Below are positions 43,864-55,746 of a stretch of 64,000 nucleotides of DNA, piece after piece (the stretch's first letter is position 1; every line of letters begins with the position of its first letter). This DNA comes from Halotalea alkalilenta (GTDB taxonomy: Bacteria; Pseudomonadota; Gammaproteobacteria; Pseudomonadales; Halomonadaceae). The translations under genes were made by a program, and so were the position numbers. The notes under the pieces were generated by a model. The model saw nothing but the letters and a program-made list of their open reading frames with translations. It did not search any database and was not told where the DNA came from. The DNA lies in NCBI RefSeq assembly GCF_001648175.1, contig NZ_CP015243.1, positions 3,782,001 through 3,846,000 of the forward strand, read 5' to 3'.

Positions 43864-45249
43864 CTAACCAGCGGATGCGAACAGCGCGCTGACCTTGTCG
43901 ATATCGCCCTGCTCGAGCACGCCCGCCTGCCAGCGCAGCGACAGCCAGGCGAGCAGCTGGTCGTAGCGCGCGCGCTGGAAGTCGCGCATCGACTCGAAAC
44001 GCTGGCGTTCGGCGTCCAGCGCATCGAGGTTGGTACGCTCGCCGCCAAGGATGCTGCGCCGGGTGGCCTCGAGCCGCTGGCTCGCGGCGCTCACCGCTTG
44101 GGCATAGGCATCGCTTCTTCGTTGGCTGCTGAGCAGGGTGCGGTACTGCCGCTCGAGATCGTTGAGCAATTCGCGCGTCGTACCATCGAGCCGATGGATG
44201 GCTTCCTCCAGCTCCGCCTGGGCCTGGTCACTGGCAGCGGAGACCCGACCGCCGGCATAGATCGGCAGGTTGACCTCGACCCCGAGGCTGTCGGTGTCGT
44301 AGCGCTGGCCGACCTGGTTCTCGGCGCTCGAATCGTTGAGCTGGCGCCGCGCATAGACTCGCATGCTCGGCAAGTGGCCGGCGCGCGCGGCCTTGACCTG
44401 CTGCCTGGACGCCTCGAGCAGGCGGCGGCCGGCGGCGAGCTCTGGGTTGCGCTTGAGCGCGAGCTGCTGCCACTGATCGAGCGGGCGCTCGGCATCGAGC
44501 GCAAGCGATGCGGATTGATTCAACCTGGCAAGCGGTGCGTCGAGCAGCACCGCACCGGTCAGCACGCGCAGTGCGTTGCGGGCATCGAGCAGTGCGTCGT
44601 GGGCCTGGATCTCCTCGGCCTCGACCACTCGCAGCCGGGCCTCGATCTCGAGTTGGTCGGTGCGGGTGCCCTCCCCACCGGCGACGAAGGCCGCCGCCCG
44701 GAGCGTATCCTCCTCCAGCGAGCGGCGCTGGGTCTCGGCGAGCGCCAATTGGTCCTCGGCGTAGAGCACCGCGGTATAGGCTTCGAGCACCCTCACCGCC
44801 AGGGCCTGCCGCGCCCGTTCCAGGGTCAGCCCGGCGGCTTGCGCCCTGGCCTGGCCTTCACGGTACTGGGCATAGGCCGCCGCATCGAACAGCGGCTGGG
44901 TCAGAGTGAAAGCGGAGGAATAGCTCGAGTAGTCGAGATCGCTGGTGATCTCTCCCGCCGCGGTGTCCTGGCGAACCTCCGACCAGTTCCTTGCCCGCGA
45001 GTAGCGATAGCTCAGGTTGGGCAAGAGCCCGGCGCGTCCAAGCGCGCGCTCCTCGACATCGGCACGGCTTCGCTCGCGGGCGGCAAGCCAGGTGGGGTCC
45101 ATCACCAGCGCCATCCGGTAGGCCATGGCGAAATCGACACTCTCAGGCTCCACCGCCATGGCGTTGGGCACCCGCTGGAGCAGGGCGAAGGCGATCAGCG
45201 CGAGCAGCAGCGGCAGTGGGCCGAACCATCCCGAACGACAGCCGTTCAT
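43864..45249 (-). CDS. hasF: TolC-like outer membrane protein of HasA secretion (HasF role)
   Basis: A 461-residue outer membrane efflux protein for type I secretion. A hydrophobic signal segment (about 8-32, ending AMA) precedes ESVDFAMAYRMALVMDPTW; the two OEP repeats follow, the second with LPIYAGGRVSAASDQA. It would be the exit duct for HasD-HasE. ATG 45249 overlaps the hasE stop (ATGA); a start 12 bases earlier is possible. It is distinct from tolC at 16455, so this system carries its own channel. Confidence 0.88.
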   Translation of the reverse strand: MNGCRSGWFGPLPLLLALIAFALLQRVPNAMAVEPESVDFAMAYRMALVMDPTWLAARERSRADVEERALGRAGLLPNLSYRYSRARNWSEVRQDTAAGEITSDLDYSSYSSAFTLTQPLFDAAAYAQYREGQARAQAAGLTLERARQALAVRVLEAYTAVLYAEDQLALAETQRRSLEEDTLRAAAFVAGGEGTRTDQLEIEARLRVVEAEEIQAHDALLDARNALRVLTGAVLLDAPLARLNQSASLALDAERPLDQWQQLALKRNPELAAGRRLLEASRQQVKAARAGHLPSMRVYARRQLNDSSAENQVGQRYDTDSLGVEVNLPIYAGGRVSAASDQAQAELEEAIHRLDGTTRELLNDLERQYRTLLSSQRRSDAYAQAVSAASQRLEATRRSILGGERTNLDALDAERQRFESMRDFQRARYDQLLAWLSLRWQAGVLEQGDIDKVSALFASAG

Positions 45250-46601
45250 GCATCGCCCCAAGCGGTGCGGGCGCGATCGAGCAGCGGCTTGAACAGGTAG
45301 TTGAGCAACGAGCGCTCGCCGGTGCGGACGAACACTTCGACCGGCATACCCGCGCGCAGCATCCGCCCATCTAGCCGCGCCAGCTGTTCGGGTCCTACCT
45401 CGACCCGGACGCGATAGAACGGCATGCCACTGCGCTCATCCTCGAGGCGATCAGCAGAGACCAGCGTCACCTCGCCCTCGAGACGCGGAGTGCTGCTGCG
45501 ATCGAAGGCGGTGAAGGCAAGCTCCACCGGCAGGCCCGCCACCACCTTGTCGATGCTCTCGACCGCGAGCTGGCCTTCGACGGTGAGCGGCCGCTCCAGC
45601 GGTACGATCTCCATCAGCCGGGCGCCGGGCTGCACCACGCCGCCAACGGTATGCAGCGAAAGCCCCACCACGGTGCCGTCGACCGGCGCGCGGACCACCT
45701 GGTGCGCCAGCTCGAATTCGGCCGCAGCGCGGCGCTGGACCAGCTGGTCGAGCTGGCCACGGACATCGGCAAGATCACCACGCACTTCCTGCTGGAAGAC
45801 GTCACGACGACTGCGCGCGCGCAGCTCGAGCTCATTGATCTGTTCACGGGTCTGGCCCAGGGCACCAAGGTCGCTTGCGATCTCACCATCGAGCTGACTG
45901 CGCTGGCGATCGAGCTCGAGCAGCCGGTTGCGCGGCACGTAGCCCTCATCGGCCAGACCGCTGAGATTGCGCCACTGCTGCTCGAGCACCGCGCGCTGGG
46001 AGCGCCGGGCGGTCAGCGACGACTCGATCCCGGCCAGCGCCGCGCGCTGGCCGGCGAGCGAGGCCTGGATCCCGGCCAGTTCGCCCTCGAGCGCGGCACG
46101 GCGGCTGTCGAACAAAGCGCGCTGGAGCTCGAAGGCGCTGTCACCCTCGATGGAGAGACCCAGTGGCGCGACCACGCCATCCAGCCCATCACGCTCGGCG
46201 ATGAGCCGCGCCTCACGCGCTCTCAGCACCTCGAGCTGGCCATCGATGTCGCCGAGTGCGCTGACCGCCCGGGTGGGGTCGAAGTGCACCAGCGGCTGGC
46301 CCGCGCTCACCCGGTCGCCTTCACCGACCGAAAGCGTCTCGACCACGCCGCCGCCGAGGCTTTCGACCGCCTGCCGCTCGCCGGCCACCATCACGGTGCC
46401 AGGCATGTTGATGCCGTTATCGAGCGGTGCCAGCGCCGCCCAGGCGAGGAAGCCGCCGAATCCCGCCAGCAGCAGCCACCAGCCCAGCCGCGCAGGATGC
46501 CGCTGCTCCAGCCGTGCCGGCTCGCCCGCCAGCGCCTGCCAATCCGGTAGCGCTTTTGCCTCGCTGCCGCGTTCGATATCGCTCGGGTGCTCGACTTTCA
46601 T
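45246..46601 (-). CDS. hasE: HlyD-family membrane fusion protein (HasE role)
   Basis: A 451-residue periplasmic adaptor: cytoplasmic N-terminus, one helix at about 39-60 ([20 protein letters not shown]), a lipoyl/barrel-sandwich half, long coiled-coil hairpin (about 150-290), second lipoyl half with [20 protein letters not shown], and a C-terminal beta-barrel. It follows HasE/PrtE-type adaptors. Start and stop overlap both neighbours by four bases. Confidence 0.9.
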
Positions 46602-48418
46602 TCCTGGGCTCCCGGCGTACGTCCACCGAGGGTGACACTCGCCATCTGATAGCTCCCTGCCGCCGACCCCATCGGCGTGACCTTCGGCTGGCTCCCCGCG
46701 CCGTTGCCGCGCAGCCGCGCCAGCACCTCCTGGGTCGCTCCGCTCAGCTGCAGCTGGCCAGCCTTGAGCACCAGAAGCCGCGTGGTCGCGGCCAGCACCT
46801 TGGGCCGGTGGGTGATCACCACCACGCTGACGCCCTGCTCGCGCAGCCGCGCGAGCGCTTCGAGCAAAGCGGTTTCTCCAGCCTCATCGAGGCTGGCATT
46901 GGGCTCGTCGAGCACCACCAGCCGCGGCGGCCCGTAGAGCGCTCGCGCCAGTGCGATACGCTGGCGCTGGCCGCCGGAGAGGCCGAGGCCACCGACACCG
47001 AGCGGGGTGTCGTAGCCTTGGGGCAAGGAGAGGACCAGCTCGTGGGCACCCGCCAGCCGAGCCGCCGCCACCACCCGCGCAGCGTCCGCATCGGGCTCAT
47101 CGCTCGGTTCGGCGAAGCGCGAGATATTCTCCGCCACCGTGCCAGCGAACAGCTCGACATCCTGCGGCAGGTAGCCGATGTACCCGCCCAGTCGCTCACG
47201 CTCCCACTGCTGGATATCGCCGCCGTCGAGGCGCACCTTGCCGATCCGGGCCCGCCAGACCCCGACCATCAGCCGGGCGAGGGTCGACTTGCCGGAACCG
47301 GAGGGCCCGATCACTCCGAGCACCTCTCCCGCTGGCAGCTCGAAGCTCAGATTGACCACCGACGGGAGCTGAGCCACCGGCGGCACCGCGGTGACCCCTT
47401 CGAAGCGCAATACGCCGCTGGGGGGCGGCAGCGGCAGACCCTGAGCGCGCAGCGGATGTTCATCGAGCAGCGTCTTGAGCCGCTGGTAGGCGAGCCGTGT
47501 GCCGCTCCACTGCCGCCAGGCGGTGATCACCATATCGATCGGACTCAGCACCCGGCCCATCAGGATCGAGCCGGCGATCATCATTCCCGGGCTGATTCGC
47601 CCCTCGATCGCAAGCCAGGCGCCAAGCCCCAGCACCAGCGACTGCAGCGCGATACGCAGGCTCTTGGAGATCGCGCTGATCAAGGCGGTGCGTTCGCTGG
47701 CCAGCGCCTGGCGCCAGACATAGCCGCGATGCATCACCCGCCAGCGCCGCAGCAGCCGCCCGAGCATGCCCATCGACTCGATCGCATCCACGTTGCGCAG
47801 CTGCCCCTCGACGCTGGCGTTGGCCCGCACCGAAAGCGTTCCCGCCTCTGCCAGCGGCCGGCGCGACAGCCACTCGTTGAGCCAGGCCAACGCGATCAAC
47901 AGCGCCGCACCGACGGTGGCAAGCACGCCGAGCCAGGGGTGGAACAGGTACATCACCAGCAGGTAGAGCGGAAACCAGGGCGCATCGAAAAAGGCGAACA
48001 CCGCATTGCCGGTGAGGAACTGGCGCAGTGCGTTGAGATCGTTGATCGCCTGGCCGGCGCTGGCCTGGCCACCGGCCAGGCCGCGCTCGAACGCGGCCTG
48101 ATGGACCCGCGCGCCGAGCAGTGCATCGAAGCGCGAGCCGATCTGGATCACCGTCAGGCTCCTGACGTACTCCATCGCCCCCATCAGCGCGAGCAGGCCG
48201 ATCGCGATCAACGTCAGCATCAACAGGGTGAATTCGTTGCCGGAGGCGAGCACCCGATCGTAGACCTGGAGCATGTAGAGCGCCGGCACCAGCATCAGCA
48301 GATTGATCACTGCGCTGAACGCGCCGATGCTGCGCAATCCACCGCGGTGGCAGGTCAGCGCAGCGCGAATCTCATCCTTGGGCGGGGCGGCGCCGGAGAC
48401 ATGGCTTGGAGGGTTCAT
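46598..48418 (-). CDS. hasD: type I secretion ABC transporter (HasD role)
   Basis: A 606-residue permease-ATPase of the HasD/PrtD class. The membrane domain covers about 20-310 with six helices ([20 protein letters not shown] is the first). The ATPase domain has Walker [10 protein letters not shown], signature [15 protein letters not shown] and Walker [14 protein letters not shown]. It energises export of HasA through its uncleaved C-terminal signal. The start at 48418 (MNPPSHVSG) is chosen because 36 codons of open frame upstream overlap the Fur-like operator. It is first in hasDEF. Confidence 0.92.
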
Positions 48419-48505
48419 CGATGTGCTCGCTGGTCGACTTGCAGACGAAATCTGGCGCGAAACGCGCGATTGGCGCGGACGATCATCCGCGCCGATACGA
48501 CAAAA

Positions 48506-48530
48506 TACAATGAGACTTCTTCTCATTGTA
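48506..48530 (-). promoter_or_regulatory. Fur-box-like palindrome upstream of hasD
   Basis: A perfect 10-bp inverted repeat, TACAATGAGA and TCTCATTGTA around CTTCT. The AATGAGA-N5-TCTCATT spacing equals that of classic Fur boxes, with a diverged core. It lies 88 bases before the hasD start. Confidence 0.7.
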
Positions 48531-48608: not shown

Positions 48609-49205
48609 TCAGGCGGCCAGCGCCAGATCGGCATCGGTGGCGGACGCAGTGCCGACCAGCGAGGCGATCGATGCATCGACGTCGAGCCCGTTGTCGATCA
48701 GCGCCTGGACCAGCCCACCGTTGGTGCCGGTACCGATGCTATCGTCAGCGCCGACCACCGAACCGTTCATCAAGCCCCAGATGACATCGTGGACATCGTT
48801 GGTGCGCCCTTCGGAGACGTCGCCGGTGATCGCCTCATCGAAGGTGAAGGTGATGAAGGCATCCGCTACCGAGCCATCCGAATTGAGACCACCACCGAGG
48901 GTGATCGAATCGATCGAGCCCCACAGGGTGTGCGAGGTCGGTCCATCGCCGACGTTACCGTTGAGCGGCGGGAAGTAGTAGTTCAGGTCACCGGTGGCCT
49001 GGAAGGCGAAGCCCAGGCTGGCATCGACGTAAGAGTAGCTGGTGCCGCTGAACGAACCGCCGCCATAGAAGCCGCCGGTATTGTTGGGGTGGGAACCTTC
49101 GAGGCCGTTGTTCTGGAAGGCGATCAGCACATCGTACAAGCTATCGTTCAGACCAGTACCATCTGGGAACCAATTTTCATCGTAGGAAGAGATGGATGCT
49201 GCCAT
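48609..49205 (-). CDS. hasA: HasA hemophore
   Basis: A 198-residue secreted heme-binding protein. Identity rests on GGFYGGGSFSGTSYSYV, closely matching HasA of Serratia (GGFYGG), on GDLNYYF with axial Tyr76, on SHTLWGSIDSITLGGGL with His92 beside the Tyr, on a candidate distal ligand His39 in EGSHPNNT, and on VHDVIWGLMNGS. There is no N-terminal signal; the C-terminus DADLALAA fits the HasA type I export signal. The Tyr-to-His spacing is 16 residues instead of 8, so that loop is longer. GGAG lies nine bases before ATG 49205. Confidence 0.92.
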   Translation of the reverse strand: MAASISSYDENWFPDGTGLNDSLYDVLIAFQNNGLEGSHPNNTGGFYGGGSFSGTSYSYVDASLGFAFQATGDLNYYFPPLNGNVGDGPTSHTLWGSIDSITLGGGLNSDGSVADAFITFTFDEAITGDVSEGRTNDVHDVIWGLMNGSVVGADDSIGTGTNGGLVQALIDNGLDVDASIASLVGTASATDADLALAA

Positions 49206-49326: not shown

Positions 49327-52254
49327 CTAGAACAGGATCTCGAAGCCCATCTGCACCGTGCGCCCCGGCGCCCAGGTGCGCGCCAACGCGTCGGAGTAGC
49401 CGTCCAGGTACATCCGGTCGGTGACGTTGTCGATCGAGGCCATCAGCTTGACGTTGGGGTTGAGCAGATAGCTGCCGTACCAGTCCCAGGTGGTAGTGGT
49501 GTACCAGGTCTGGCCGCCGCCGGTGGAGCGGTTGTACCAGCCGCTGCCGCTGTAGTTGAAACGCACCCCGGTATCGAGCCGCCGATCGAACAGCCGCACG
49601 CCGAGGTTGGCGGTGCCCTTGTCGACCGGCATTGCGACTACGCTGTTGTAGGCCAGGTTGCCGCAGCGCACCTCGTTATCGAGGCTCTCCTCGTAGGAGT
49701 CATAGCCATCCGCGACCGCCTGCTGGTGTTCCTCGGTCATCGAACCGTCTTCGTTGGGCTGGTCATATTGGGAAATACCGCTACCCAGCCACCACCGCCT
49801 CTGGCAGAAGGTATTGGGGCCGCCGACATAGTGGGTGTAGGTGGCGCCGCCATAGATCCAGCCGGCGTCGTAGCGACTCTCCAGCTCGATACCGCGAAAG
49901 CGGGTCTGGGCCAGGTTGTTGTTGAACACCAGCCTACCCAGGCCGCCGGCGATTTCTCCTGGTACCTGGTTCTGGATCGAGGTGAACAGGTAGTTGTCCG
50001 CCTTGGTATCGAAATAGCTCAGCTTGGCGAACAGCATATCGCCCTGGGTGAACAGGTCGCGGAAGGTGGTGTTCGCCCCGACCTCCCAGCTGGTGGTGGT
50101 CTCCGGCTCGGCGTAGGGGTTGGGGTACATACTGGCGAAGGGGTCCCCGGGGTGGCTGCCGGCCATCAGCGACTCATTGATCGCCGGCGGACGCCACGAC
50201 TTGCCCCAATTGGCGTAGAGCTCGAGCCAGCTGGCCGGGCGGATCGCCGCCCCCAGCGAGGGCAGGAACTTATCCTCGGAGCGATCGACGTGGTAGTCGT
50301 TGAGCACCTGCTCGTCTTCCCAGCCCGGTGCGTAGTAGCCGCGAGTCCAGTACAAGTCCCCTGCATAGGCGATGGCCCCCTGCTCGCCGCCTGAGCGTGC
50401 CGCCTCGCAGGCGGCCACGCTATATGCACTGGATCGATTGCAGTTGTAGTTAATGAAACGGTCGAGCCGGCTGACATAGTTGCTCTCGGTTCCCCATACC
50501 TGGGTATCCCCCTTGAGCCAGTAGCGGTCGTAGCGCAGCCCGGCGGAGAGGGTGTAGAAGTCGTCCTCGAGGGTCAGGTTGGTGAACAGGCTGCCCATGG
50601 TGCGCCTGCCCATAGGGTTCAGCGTATCCCCCGCCGCGGCGCTGACCTGGCGCCCTTCGCGGTCGGTAGTGATCCACGACTCAGCGCGATCCTGGAAGTA
50701 CTCGAGCCCGTAGTTGGCGCGCAGCTGGGTGGTCTGATTGAGCTGCCAGCGCGAGGTATTGTCGATCTGCAGTCCATAGGTCTCCATCTCGATGCGCTGG
50801 TTGCGGCCAGTACCGTAGCTGCAGGAGCTCGCCCATGAGTCCGGAATCGGATCCAGGTCGCAGTAGCCGTAGTCCCAGGCGTAATCGACCAGTACGGAGC
50901 CGCTCGCCGGATAGGTAGGGTTGCTGTAGTTGCGGTTTTTGGTATCGACGTAGTAGAGCTTGACGTTGAGATCGATCAGGTCGTTGTCGCTCGGGTTCCA
51001 CTTGTAGTCGAGGCCGAAGTTTTCAGACTCGACCCTGGAGCTGCCGAGGCTGCGCCAGGGGGTGCCACTTGCCTGCAGCGAGGTGTCGGCATCGGTGGTA
51101 TTGGCGTAGCTGATCTCGGTGCCGATGTAGCTGAACTGGATCGACTGCTCGGGCGAAATCTTGTACTTCGCCTTGAACAGCTGCGAATCCTGCTGCTGGT
51201 CGGCGAACTTCACGCTGTCGTAGTAGCCGTCGTAGCCGGTATCGGTCCAGGCGCGGTTGAGCCCATTGCCGCCATGCCGGCCGATATCGTAGTCGCCGAT
51301 CGAACGGCGCGAGCGGGCGGCGAGCAGTTCGAGCCGGTCGTCGATACGCCCGGCGACGGCGAGGCTGCCGATGAAGTCGACGCCGTTGCCCTCGCCGCCG
51401 AGCCCGGTGTTACCGCGCAGCCGGCCGCCAAAATCGCGACCGGGCTTGATCAGGTCGTCGAAGTCCAGGGTGGAGAAGTTGACCTGTCCCGCGATCGCGC
51501 CGGCGCCGTGCACGTCGGCCCGCGGGCCGCGCTCGACTGTCGCGCCGGAGAGCAGTTCGGAGTCGACGTACATCTCGCCGTTGCGCTGCTGGTGGCCGTT
51601 GCTGACGAAGTTCTGGCGCATGCCGTCGATCATCATGTTGACCCGGCCGAAGTCCTGCATCCCGCGGATGTTGATCGAAAGCCCCGGATTCAGGCGATTG
51701 ACCGCGCTGGTCACCCCCGGGGTCTCCTCGAGCAGTTCGGCAGCGTGGCGCACCGGCAGCCGGTCCATCTGCTCGCGGGTGATCACGCTGACCGAACGCG
51801 GGGTCTGGTAGACCCAATCATCGCGCCTCGCGGTGACAGTGAGCTGTTCAAGTCGCGCGGCGCCTGCGCTCGGCAGCGGCTCCAGCAGCACCTCACCTCC
51901 CGGCTGTACCAGCGCACGCAGGCCGCTGCCTTCGAGCAACCGGTCGAGGGCAAGGGCCGCGCTCATCTGCCCTTGCAACGCCGGCGCCTGACCAGCGATC
52001 GCCTGGTCGCTGGGGCGGATCAGCGAGAGCCCGGTGGTGGCGGTGAAAGCGCCAAGCGCGGCGAGGCGCGGCTGCGCGGGAATATCGAAATCGTACTCGG
52101 CGCTGAAAGCGCTTTCCTGGGCGGAGGGCGCCGTTTGAGCGAGCACAGGCGCAACGCCCAGCCCCACTCCCAGCGCCATCGCCAAGGTCACGGCCAGGCG
52201 CAGCTTGTTCGGCGCCCATGGCTGCCGCTGAGCCGTCATCTCTCTAACGCTCAT
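49327..52254 (-). CDS. hasR: HasR-like TonB-dependent hemophore/heme receptor with signalling domain
   Basis: A 975-residue outer membrane receptor. The signal peptide ends near VLA-Q; an STN signalling domain follows at about 50-115 (FDIPAQPRLAALGAFTATTG), then a plug at about 130-260 (RSVSVITREQMDRLPVR, SINIRGMQDFGRVNMMIDGM) and a beta-barrel ending in Phe. The STN domain is what talks to a FecR/HasS protein, present here. Start 52254 is chosen (AGGGGA upstream); ATG 52239 or TTG 52275 are possible. It lies just upstream of hasA and below a Fur box. Confidence 0.92.
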   Translation of the reverse strand: MSVREMTAQRQPWAPNKLRLAVTLAMALGVGLGVAPVLAQTAPSAQESAFSAEYDFDIPAQPRLAALGAFTATTGLSLIRPSDQAIAGQAPALQGQMSAALALDRLLEGSGLRALVQPGGEVLLEPLPSAGAARLEQLTVTARRDDWVYQTPRSVSVITREQMDRLPVRHAAELLEETPGVTSAVNRLNPGLSINIRGMQDFGRVNMMIDGMRQNFVSNGHQQRNGEMYVDSELLSGATVERGPRADVHGAGAIAGQVNFSTLDFDDLIKPGRDFGGRLRGNTGLGGEGNGVDFIGSLAVAGRIDDRLELLAARSRRSIGDYDIGRHGGNGLNRAWTDTGYDGYYDSVKFADQQQDSQLFKAKYKISPEQSIQFSYIGTEISYANTTDADTSLQASGTPWRSLGSSRVESENFGLDYKWNPSDNDLIDLNVKLYYVDTKNRNYSNPTYPASGSVLVDYAWDYGYCDLDPIPDSWASSCSYGTGRNQRIEMETYGLQIDNTSRWQLNQTTQLRANYGLEYFQDRAESWITTDREGRQVSAAAGDTLNPMGRRTMGSLFTNLTLEDDFYTLSAGLRYDRYWLKGDTQVWGTESNYVSRLDRFINYNCNRSSAYSVAACEAARSGGEQGAIAYAGDLYWTRGYYAPGWEDEQVLNDYHVDRSEDKFLPSLGAAIRPASWLELYANWGKSWRPPAINESLMAGSHPGDPFASMYPNPYAEPETTTSWEVGANTTFRDLFTQGDMLFAKLSYFDTKADNYLFTSIQNQVPGEIAGGLGRLVFNNNLAQTRFRGIELESRYDAGWIYGGATYTHYVGGPNTFCQRRWWLGSGISQYDQPNEDGSMTEEHQQAVADGYDSYEESLDNEVRCGNLAYNSVVAMPVDKGTANLGVRLFDRRLDTGVRFNYSGSGWYNRSTGGGQTWYTTTTWDWYGSYLLNPNVKLMASIDNVTDRMYLDGYSDALARTWAPGRTVQMGFEILF

Positions 52255-52277
52255 CGCTAAAACGTTCCCCTGCAATA

Positions 52278-52294
52278 ATGATAATGATTGTCAT
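52278..52294 (-). promoter_or_regulatory. Fur box upstream of hasR
   Basis: ATGATAATGATTGTCAT is a palindrome matching at seven of eight base pairs and extends into further ATAATGATAATG repeats, very close to the GATAATGATAATCATTATC consensus. It lies 24 bases from the chosen hasR start, where Fur would block transcription or early elongation. Confidence 0.88.
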
Positions 52295-52426
52295 ATCACT
52301 ATCGATAACGTTTGAGCCCGGGCGCTTCCTCAGGGAAAAACTCAAAAAATTAAGTTTGAACGAAGCTTCCCACACCCTGGTGCGCAGCGCGGAGCGCACG
52401 CGTCGGCGATACCCATCGATAAGTCC

Positions 52427-52784
52427 TGCGGCAGCGGCATGGCCGTGGTTCGACACGGGCCTCCATGGTGTCTTGCAAGATTGCCCAAGTCGACGAAGGC
52501 CCGGCTCACCACGAACGGACAGATACACCCGTTCGTCCCGAGCGGCGCCGATACGCGCCAAGGCCGGGTACCGACTCGGCAATGGGGGCGCCAGTCGAGG
52601 GATCGTGCGGCGGCGGTATGGCCATGGTTCGACTCGGCTCGTTCATCACCGGCTGACCACGAGCGGATATGGGGGATGCCGGGCCTTCGCGCCAATTTCC
52701 AACCCGTTCGTCCCGAGCGGCGCCGATACGCGCTAAGGCCGGGTACCGACTCGGCAATGGGGGCGCCAGTCGAGGGATCGTGCG
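52427..52784. repeat. tandem intergenic repeat, about 175-180 bp unit, 2+ copies
   Basis: An 82-base block at 52528-52609 recurs at 52703-52784 with one mismatch (offset 175). A more diverged partial copy starts at 52427, with TGCGGCAGCGGCATGGCC and GTGGTTCGAC matching the unit at 52606. A relative lies at 26201-26291. It fills most of the 633-base gene-free gap 52255-52887; besides it only the Fur box region is recognisable there. Long open frames here are artefacts of repeat sequence. Confidence 0.85.
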
Positions 52785-52887
52785 ACGATGGCTCGTTCCT
52801 CCGAGCATCTCTAGCAAGAAGCGCACCGAGGGGCACGAACGGTACGGGATCCCGCCCATCGTCTCACCGTACGCGAATACGCCTGGT

Positions 52888-53310
52888 TCAGGGACGCTGC
52901 CGGGCGGTGAAGACGATCGCTTGCTCGACACGCTGGGGCTCGCTTCGGTGATTGGTCCGCCAACGCTTGACGTCGTTGGTCACGCGGGTGAGAAATTCAT
53001 GGCTCACATGTTCGCTGGCGCTGGTGCCGAGCACTTCCACACTGCCATCGGCTTGCAGTTCGAGGATCAGGACCACTGCCAGGTCGGGGTAGAACAGCAT
53101 GCCGCCGTCGCGGGGCGACACCTGCACCACCTCGGCGTAGGGATATTCGGGCAACGGACAGGTGAGTACATCGAAGGTGGCCCCTGCCTGGGGCTCGTAA
53201 TGACGGCAGGCCTCGTCCTGCTGCCAGGTGACCGCGTTCGGCGACGCACAGCCAGCCAGCAGTACCAGCGCGGCACAGCAAAGCGCCCGTTGATTGGCTT
53301 TCCCGCTCAT
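52888..53310 (-). CDS. lipoprotein with TonB C-terminal-like domain
   Basis: A 140-residue lipoprotein: MSGKANQRALCCAALVLLAG is followed by Cys21 of the lipobox. The part at about 55-137 reads like a TonB C-terminal domain: PEYP, hydrophobic strand VVLILELQADGSVEVLGTSA with its DG turn, then a helix ending DVKRWR, and a last strand VEQAIVF. HasB, a dedicated TonB, belongs to some Has systems, so this may be its counterpart, but it has a lipid anchor instead of an N-terminal helix and no proline-rich linker. GGAGAGGG precedes ATG 53310. The similarity is by eye and unproven. Confidence 0.7.
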   Translation of the reverse strand: MSGKANQRALCCAALVLLAGCASPNAVTWQQDEACRHYEPQAGATFDVLTCPLPEYPYAEVVQVSPRDGGMLFYPDLAVVLILELQADGSVEVLGTSASEHVSHEFLTRVTNDVKRWRTNHRSEPQRVEQAIVFTARQRP

Positions 53311-53369
53311 TTCCCTCTCCTCGCAAATGCCCGCTCCGTCGGGCGGTTCACCCACTCGATCGATGGAAG

Positions 53370-53400
53370 AGCCCCACAACGTTCAGGTCGTGGGGCTTTT
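53370..53400 (-). terminator. hairpin after heme oxygenase gene
   Basis: AGCCCCAC (53370-53377) pairs with GTGGGGCT (53390-53397). It stands 15 bases beyond the hemO stop on the minus strand and separates hemO from the lipoprotein gene. The T run is on the plus strand side, so its strength for minus transcripts is uncertain. Confidence 0.65.
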
Positions 53401-53414
53401 GCGCATGCGCCGGC

Positions 53415-54041
53415 TCAGGCATCGTCGCGCAGCGTTTCTCCCAGCTTCAGCACCGTTTCGAAGGCCTCGCGGGCGCCGAGGATCACAGCCTGCTCGTGCT
53501 CGGGCTCGATCGGTGCGGCGTCGATCTGCGCGGCGAACTGCCGCCAGTGCAATCCGCGGCCTTCGGGATGGGGGGCCAGATGACGAGCGCCGAACTCGCC
53601 GTCGAGACCGAGGCTGGCTGCGTATTTGTAGAGAAAGGCAGCGCCGAGATTGGAACCTTCGTTGACGTACAGCCATCCGAGCGCGCGAGCACGCTCGGAG
53701 GCATCCATAGGCGGTGCCAGCTTGGCGGCGGCGGGGGTCGGCACGACGACGCCGAGATCGCGACAGTCCTGGTCGACCGCGCTGAAGCGCTCGCGCTCGG
53801 CGAGTCCGGGCAGCCAGCGATTGAGCTCGGCATCGCGATAGAGCGCTTCGGTCAGCCAGTGGAAGGCATGCTGGAGCCGCAGAAAGCGCCCGTAGCGCTC
53901 GCGATCATCGAACAACTTGGCCGCCATCATCCTGGCGTCGATCTGTTCGTGCAGCTCGCGGGTGGCGAGCTTCAATACCATCGCCCTGCTCTGCTCCACG
54001 CGATCGGGCGCCATATCGACGCCTTGATTTACATCGCTCAT
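53415..54041 (-). CDS. bacterial heme oxygenase
   Basis: About 208 residues of the HemO/PigA class: proximal heme His31 in ATRELHEQIDARM, and the distal helix with conserved glycines in GWLYVNEGSNLGAAFLYKYA. It opens heme to biliverdin, CO and iron, the step expected after heme import. ATG 54041 is preferred because AGAGG stands eight bases before it; ATG 54071, two bases after the fecR stop, would add ten residues. It is co-transcribed with the sigma/anti-sigma genes. Confidence 0.88.
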   Translation of the reverse strand: MSDVNQGVDMAPDRVEQSRAMVLKLATRELHEQIDARMMAAKLFDDRERYGRFLRLQHAFHWLTEALYRDAELNRWLPGLAERERFSAVDQDCRDLGVVVPTPAAAKLAPPMDASERARALGWLYVNEGSNLGAAFLYKYAASLGLDGEFGARHLAPHPEGRGLHWRQFAAQIDAAPIEPEHEQAVILGAREAFETVLKLGETLRDDA

Positions 54042-54072
54042 TCCTGGTTCCTCTGCTTGTTGTACGATCATG

Positions 54073-55116
54073 TCAATTCCCTTCCCCCCGGCGCTCGCTC
54101 AATACCACGCTGCCATCCGGCAGAGTGAATACATTCACCCCAAGCGCACTGGGCAATGCCTGCAGTACGGCGGAGGGCTCGGTGCGTGCGAAGGTGGCGG
54201 AAAAACGCCGCTGTTCGAGCCGATCCCGATCGAATACCAGCACTCGCCCCGGTCTGGTTCGTTCGAGTTCGCGTACGACCGTGTCGATATCGGCACGATC
54301 GAAGATCATCAGGCCACGTCGCCAGGCCAGCCCCACAGCGGGCTCGAAGCCGGTGACGCTACCCAGCCGCTCCGCATCGACCTCGACCCGCTGCCCGGCT
54401 TCGAGCACGACGCGCTCACCGCCCGGTGCGCTCACCCCCACCCTGCCCTGCTCGACCGAAACGTCCACGCTTTGCGCATTGCGCTCGACGGCGAAGCGGG
54501 TGCCCAGCACAGCGACTTCGACACCGTTGGCCTCGACCAGGAAAGGGCGACCATCGCGGACGACGTCGAGCCATACGCGTCCGCGCCGAAGCTCGATGCG
54601 CCGGTCGCTGGCGGAGAAATCGACATCGAACGCGCTGTCGCCGTCGAGAAACAGGCGCGAGCCATCGACGAGCGTCACCTCGCGTCCCGGTCCCGCAGCC
54701 ACTGCGTGATCGGCGAACGCGCGGGTCGTCCAGCCCGGGTCGCGCCAGACCAGCAACAGCACCGCCAGTACCAGCGGCAAGCATGCGGCGATCGCAAGCG
54801 CTGGCCGCCAGCGGCGAAGCGCCAAGGCGCGACTGCGGTCTCTGCCAGCCGAAGCGATGGAGACGGTTTCGGCAGCACCGCCGCTGCGCTCCTGGACCGC
54901 CAGCAGCAGCGCCGCTCGATCACCGAGCGCCGAGATCTCCTCGGCCTGCCGCCAGGCCCGCCGATGCTCCGGTGCCGCGGCCAGCCATGCCTGGAGCGCT
55001 GCGAGCCGGGCGGGATCGACGTCGGGATCCCTGGTCGCCACCAGCCATTCGAGTGCCCGGTCGAGCAGTGCCGCCTGTTCGACGTCGCGATCGTTGTCGT
55101 TATCGCTATCGTTCAT
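54073..55116 (-). CDS. hasS: FecR-type anti-sigma regulator (HasS role)
   Basis: A 347-residue bitopic inner-membrane protein: N-terminal DUF4880-like cytoplasmic part (LEWLVATRDPDVDPARLAAL), helix at about 107-124, then a periplasmic FecR domain (about 140-235, GREVTLVDGSRLFLDGDSAF), and an end that resembles the receptor-interacting secretin/STN-like module. It would relay the HasR signal to the sigma factor. It follows the sigma gene by 114 bases. Confidence 0.9.
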   Translation of the reverse strand: MNDSDNDNDRDVEQAALLDRALEWLVATRDPDVDPARLAALQAWLAAAPEHRRAWRQAEEISALGDRAALLLAVQERSGGAAETVSIASAGRDRSRALALRRWRPALAIAACLPLVLAVLLLVWRDPGWTTRAFADHAVAAGPGREVTLVDGSRLFLDGDSAFDVDFSASDRRIELRRGRVWLDVVRDGRPFLVEANGVEVAVLGTRFAVERNAQSVDVSVEQGRVGVSAPGGERVVLEAGQRVEVDAERLGSVTGFEPAVGLAWRRGLMIFDRADIDTVVRELERTRPGRVLVFDRDRLEQRRFSATFARTEPSAVLQALPSALGVNVFTLPDGSVVLSERRGEGN

Positions 55117-55230: not shown

Positions 55231-55746
55231 TCACTGACTCTCCCGCCAGCGTCGGCACACCTTGAGCGCCCGCATCATTTCCTTCTCCACCAGGCTCACC
55301 GAGAGGCCCAACCGCTCGGCGATCTGGGCGTAGCTCAATTGATCGACCCGATTGAGCAGGAATATCTGGCGGGTACGCGCAGGCTCGCGGCCCAGCACCG
55401 ACATCAGCGACTCCAACTGCTCGCGCGCAGCCACCAATCGTTCACTGGAGGGGCTCTCTTCCTCGTCCTCTTCGCTCGCCAGGACCTGGACGTAACGCTC
55501 CCGCACCCGCAGCCCGCGCAGGCGGTCGAGGGCCAGGTTACGCGCGGTACGATAGAGCAACCCGGTGCAGTCACCCTCGGGCACGCACCCCTGCCGCTGG
55601 CGCTCCCAAAGACGCAGGAAGGCATCGTGAGCGACCTCTTCGGCGATCGCAGTGCTGCCGACGATGCGCCTGAGCACACCGAGCAAGCGCTTGCGCTCGC
55701 GGGCGAAAACCTCCAGCAGGGCTGAGTGATCCGCTCTCGGGTTCAT
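55231..55746 (-). CDS. hasI: FecI-type ECF sigma factor (HasI role)
   Basis: A 171-residue sigma factor with region 2 (IAEEVAHDAFLRLWER) and region 4 (LSYAQIAERLGLSVSLVEKE). FecI-type factors are controlled by FecR proteins and TonB receptors with STN domains, both found downstream. A Fur-like site lies 90 bases before the ATG at 55746. It would drive hasR and its companions when heme-HasA is present. Confidence 0.9.
   Translation of the reverse strand: MNPRADHSALLEVFARERKRLLGVLRRIVGSTAIAEEVAHDAFLRLWERQRQGCVPEGDCTGLLYRTARNLALDRLRGLRVRERYVQVLASEEDEEESPSSERLVAAREQLESLMSVLGREPARTRQIFLLNRVDQLSYAQIAERLGLSVSLVEKEMMRALKVCRRWRESQ

Follow-up and report, generated by a model that had tools for sequence, protein, structure and literature searches.

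An orphan lipoprotein gene in the has locus

The 64,000-nucleotide stretch of Halotalea alkalilenta analysed here (contig NZ_CP015243.1, positions 3,782,001 to 3,846,000; the window) harbours a has heme-uptake locus in which an orphan lipoprotein gene, whose product probably contains a core resembling the TonB C-terminal domain (CTD), lies between hemO and hasR. Pfam matches confirmed the surrounding has genes, all on the same strand: hasR, hasA, hasD, hasE and hasF downstream, and the genes for heme oxygenase (hemO), an anti-sigma factor and an extracytoplasmic function (ECF) sigma factor upstream (Table 1). The location inside the has locus given by an earlier sequence-only reading of the window was thus confirmed.

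Translation of 53310..52888 on the minus strand gave 140 amino acids and a stop codon, with the clean lipobox at Cys21 that the same reading had described. The lipobox (L18-A19-G20-C21) is preceded by K4/R8 and a hydrophobic run, as in bacterial lipoproteins, and is retained in the second Halotalea genome. A good ribosome-binding site (AGGAGAGGGAA) lies upstream of the ATG. Codon usage was coding-like in this frame (+0.26 bits/codon) and negative in the other five frames and in a 304-amino-acid antisense open reading frame (ORF), while all ten neighbouring genes used for comparison scored higher (0.31-0.61). The gene is real and correctly read. Under the Asp+2 rule, alanine after the lipidated cysteine leads to the expectation of outer-membrane sorting. 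The N-terminus is a signal peptide and not the inner-membrane helix by which HasB and TonB contact ExbB/ExbD; the absence of an ExbB-contacting helix, also claimed before, is true by sequence.

In the second genome, that of H. alkalilenta DSM 17697, a 99% identical copy of the gene adjoins hemO. The contig stops about 235 bp past this copy and hasR is on a separate contig; the break is probably explained by the 86-bp repeat (57 matches in the genome) that the window shows in the gap to hasR. The two copies of the gene differ by one non-synonymous and three synonymous changes, four in total and thus a weak basis for judging selection. Only 4 of the 527 sites in block 52888-53414 differ between the two genomes, against 1.0-5.6% in other genes; hasR, hemO and fecR diverge by 4-6%. 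Recent exchange, not constraint, could explain the low divergence of the block.

Table 1. Features of the has locus and of the orphan lipoprotein gene (positions in the window).
Feature	Position	Strand	Remarks
Orphan lipoprotein gene, 140 amino acids	52888..53310	-	Signal peptide 1-20, lipidated Cys21, probable TonB-CTD-like core ~77-136
Type II signal peptide	53248..53310	-	Lipobox LAGC (Cys21), +2 Ala; direct sequence reading
Predicted strand-strand-helix-strand core (residues 77-136)	52903..53082	-	Model: strands 77-85, 91-98 and 129-135, helix 104-120; residues 80-139 align with TonB CTDs in hhalign
hasD-hasE-hasF, type I secretion genes	43864..48526	-	Pfam
hasA, hemophore	48609..49205	-	PF06438
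hasR, TonB-dependent heme receptor; N-terminal STN match below threshold (21.9 bits, cut-off 28.4)	49327..52275	-	Pfam
Sigma-70-like promoter match	52278..52305	-	Directly before hasR; 2 found in region vs 0.4 expected
Fur-box-like site	52279..52293	+	1 mismatch to TGATAATNATTATCA; just upstream of hasR
Dispersed repeat block	52424..52787		Separates lipoprotein gene and hasR; two copies of an 86-bp core that has 57 matches in the genome
11-pair hairpin, candidate terminator or attenuator	53370..53397	-	Between hemO and lipoprotein gene
hemO, heme oxygenase	53415..54071	-	PF01126
FecR/HasS-type anti-sigma factor	54073..55116	-	Pfam
FecI/HasI-type ECF sigma factor	55231..55746	-	Pfam

Resemblance to the TonB C-terminal domain

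The sequence-only reading had seen a TonB C-terminal pattern in this protein and proposed profile and structure searches. The profile searches gave a divided answer. In Pfam-A, the lipoprotein matched no family, TonB_C (PF03544; curated cut-off 24.6 bits) included, at E<=1 or E<=10, and it was not among the four PF03544 matches of the genome at E<=10. A profile built from 27 of 31 TonB_C loci of relatives scored it at 7.6 bits, a value reached by none of 5000 shuffles (best 7.2), which fell to 6.4 bits once two misaligned rows (L071, L077) were removed. In a scan of 3566 six-frame ORFs, the lipoprotein and its own orthologue came out on top (6.4 bits, E ~1), with the next ORF at 6.0 bits. Alignment to the TonB profile with hhalign gave a score of 27.5 (P 2.1e-4, probability 46%), matched by 0/300 shuffles (best 22.5) and by 0/599 other ORFs of 110-180 amino acids (runner-up 20.3; 600 of 746 ORFs were sampled, one being the frame of the gene itself). 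The same test gives 61-161 for genuine short TonB_C lipoproteins. As the lipoprotein had been chosen for its TonB look, the shuffle and ORF tests are not blind.

Among the 27 TonB domains, BLASTP paired the lipoprotein best with those of the two Halotalea genomes (31% over residues 74-139). The TonB of the window's own genome (G000:C1:2524184, L001) shares 31% identity over the last 66 amino acids and the same C-terminal strand, but it is a 377-amino-acid protein with a likely membrane helix, by sequence reading, and an Ala/Glu-rich linker. All of the landmarks named earlier are present (two YP pairs, at 56-57 and 74-75, DG at 88-89, KRWR at 115-118 and a last strand-like stretch at 128-135), but the register had been set on the YP at 56-57, while the alignments place the YP of TonB onto 74-75. 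The six-frame search of the family returned weak matches to three true TonB domains (G017, G000, G001), and PilP and AMP-binding enzymes at equal or better E values. The resemblance to TonB exceeds chance, at the level of sequence, by a modest margin.

The single-sequence AlphaFold2 model has low confidence and shows a strand-strand-helix-strand arrangement. Both structure searches with this model ranked TonB domains first, although with insignificant E values, and unrelated folds tied in one of them; the HasB CTD was low in one. A second model, with TonB rows in the alignment, reached a whole-protein pLDDT (predicted local distance difference test) of 57.6 and a predicted TM-score of 0.49. 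Structure searches with this aided model are circular, and weight was placed on the single-sequence model; the HasB CTD was absent among the matches listed for the circular search. Taken with the alignments, the single-sequence model suggests that the protein probably has a TonB-like strand-strand-helix-strand core; this part of the earlier reading is supported, weakly by sequence.

Distribution and related lipoproteins

A protein search of 5.8 billion sequences returned one cluster, containing the lipoprotein only, and a search of genome contigs returned only H. alkalilenta DSM 17697. At E<=1e-3 the gene was found in 2/275 genomes of the family, both Halotalea. Another 88 family genomes gave only weak matches (E 0.004 to 1). 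The top one is interrupted by stop codons, and five others were identified as two PilP proteins, two AMP-binding enzymes and one true TonB_C. Plasmid searches gave weak protein matches or none. The data searched yielded relatives only within the genus, and the gene appears restricted to Halotalea.

HasA was present in 20/275 family genomes: the two Halotalea, one without any other has gene (L044 of G194, excluded as a non-has locus) and 17 with other has loci. Two of these 17 (L028, L039), in which no hemO was found beside hasR, were left out of the gap count. A comparable lipoprotein was absent from all 15 remaining hemO-hasR gaps, and none of the 20 fetched stretches holds a further ORF with a conspicuous likeness to TonB. 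The gene is thus carried by a single lineage; in relatives it is absent and not retained beside hasR, where the sequence-only reading had suggested looking for it. The comparison of has loci covers the family; in the class-wide HasA search 1/369 was positive, the window's own genome.

The other 15 gaps have contents of their own. Eight hold a NUDIX-like ORF in the opposite orientation (one Pfam-confirmed, the rest by eye), 5 (L031, L037, L038, L042, L043) encode a small hydrophobic protein with a length of about 90 amino acids, and 2 contain neither. The one hydrophobic protein searched had no Pfam match. The 87-amino-acid ORF of L037 has a loose lipobox pattern and was not counted, as it looks like a membrane protein. 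In L038:5140-9476 and L039:5580-9344, about 4 kb separate the hasR side from hasA, unlike in the compact loci.

Short TonB_C proteins exist elsewhere in Pseudomonadales. Among seven loci fetched for such an ORF, PF03544 was confirmed at six; a lipobox was present in five, a near-lipobox in L102 and neither in L105. The proteins of L103, L104, L106, L107 (an Endozoicomonas 'TonB family protein') and L108 resemble the Halotalea lipoprotein in having a signal peptide with a lipobox, 129-156 amino acids, a TonB-CTD-type core (a probable one in Halotalea) and no inner-membrane anchor, but they pass the Pfam cut-off and mostly keep the YP...G region. Since lipobox proteins with a genuine TonB_C domain occur in these bacteria, the architecture of a TonB-tip lipoprotein has precedents; what is new in Halotalea is how strongly the protein has diverged, its restriction to one genus and its place in a heme locus. 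The seven large ORFs neighbouring short TonB_C genes at six loci (GH20 twice, NAD synthase, LeuRS, YhdP, a PKD protein and one without Pfam match) include no TonB receptor; smaller neighbours were untested. The proteins of L102 (6898-7272, near-lipobox) and L103 (6795-7184, lipobox) come from two genera of the same family and each lie near a GH20 gene, with which they may form a conserved pair. By contrast, the HasB of the Serratia has system is described as a TonB paralogue of the inner membrane whose CTD has an additional helix at its N-terminus (PMC3602595), while the Halotalea protein is a mature lipoprotein of 120 amino acids.

A candidate passive partner of HasR

The lipoprotein would probably be tethered to the inner face of the outer membrane, exposing to the periplasm a diverged TonB-CTD-like domain with no motor contact. 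Its last strand (~128-135) may pair with an exposed peptide, for which the TonB box or N-terminal tail of HasR is the likeliest candidate. By holding or shielding this tail, the lipoprotein could tune the access of the real TonB or the signalling through FecR/HasS; it cannot itself transduce energy. We propose a passive binder of the HasR tail because HasB is described as using its last strand, assisted by helix 1, to bind the TonB box of HasR (PMC3602595), the signalling domain of FecA is reported to be able to block its own TonB box (PMC11658791), and the Has signalling route is given as HasS and HasI (PMC9249621). A genus-restricted, unenergised TonB-tip-like lipoprotein with this role, fold included, is our tentative preference, held at well below even chances. 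A more specific version, a genus-specific 'decoy TonB' whose tip, tethered to the outer membrane, would sit on the TonB box or signalling domain of HasR and control TonB access or HasS/HasI signalling, is considerably less probable.

Several observations weigh against a tie to HasR. Of TonB_C, the YP-helix 1-RG.EG half is either lost or remodelled (YP occurs twice, the RG.EG segment is absent), and the gene is not conserved in the has loci of relatives. The link to HasR is one of position, and the spacers weaken it: 612 bp separate the gene from hasR, with the repeat block and the Fur-box-like site in between, and the hairpin separates it from hemO. With <=3 mismatches to the Fur-box consensus, 0.21 sites are expected in the window and 19/100 shuffles contain at least one. 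The promoter scan listed no sigma-70-like match before the lipoprotein gene. The hairpin has a z of -2.89 (5/200 shuffles fold equally well or better) and was not listed by the consensus terminator scan. The repeats, Fur-box-like site and promoter-like match before hasR, and the hairpin after hemO, make co-transcription with hasR doubtful and with hemO uncertain. Elsewhere in the genome, the 86-bp repeat core often forms arrays with a spacing of about 150-230 bp. The earlier proposal of a new has-system accessory gains no support from the distribution, the spacers and the short TonB_C lipoproteins that lie, as far as checked, away from heme genes.

A role unconnected with HasR comes close in likelihood to the passive HasR binder, though still improbable taken alone: the protein would belong to the existing kind of short TonB_C lipoproteins, serve for example another envelope partner and follow hemO by chance arrangement. 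Mostly lipobox-bearing proteins of this kind at other places in Pseudomonadales (L102 and L103 near GH20, L104, L106, L107, L108) and the elements parting the gene from hasR favour it, while the place inside a heme-uptake cluster, adjoining hemO in both Halotalea genomes (the second contig ends before hasR), speaks against it. It is unlikely, to a greater degree, that the protein is an orphan lipoprotein of another fold whose strand-DG-strand-helix pattern resembles TonB by chance or convergence. The missing Pfam match, the E of ~1 in the ORF scan, the low model confidence and the tying folds agree with this, as do weak alignments to IS256 transposases: residues 54-116 align with the IS256/Mutator catalytic core (E 2.1, PDB sequences), nine plasmid records match at E 0.3-1 (two annotated IS256), and an IS256-type transposase (6xg8) ranked 14th in a structure search of the aided model. 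However, TonB CTDs top both searches of the single-sequence model, and the TonB match takes in the last strand and extends to the C-terminus, whereas the transposase alignments stop short; unlike a transposase core, this protein is a secreted lipoprotein, and it has no Pfam match. Against the lipoprotein, three transposases reached E 0.026-0.047 over 38-62 residues (five-locus set) and TonB 4.5e-5 (27-sequence set), values from different small databases and indicative only. The comparison of these alignments made the IS256 reading less probable. Two partial IS256-family matches occur in the genome (G000:C1:3504350-3504807). A decayed or scarcely functional gene, for example the remainder of a lost HasB/TonB-like gene, is very unlikely: the gene is genus-restricted, strongly diverged and flanked by the repeat block and hairpin, but its frame, lipobox, ribosome-binding site and coding codon usage are intact, and the few substitutions between the Halotalea genomes argue weakly in the same direction.

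TonB-tip-only lipoproteins are present in databases, yet a narrow search of the open-access literature turned up no study of one. If such a lipoprotein acts on a receptor without motor coupling, a passive TonB mimic can gate receptors; if the decoy version holds, receptor shielding by a lipoprotein would be a novel level of control over TonB-dependent transport. Halotalea is described as an osmotolerant environmental genus (PMC4572670), and its has locus would be a manageable place for testing passive receptor gating.
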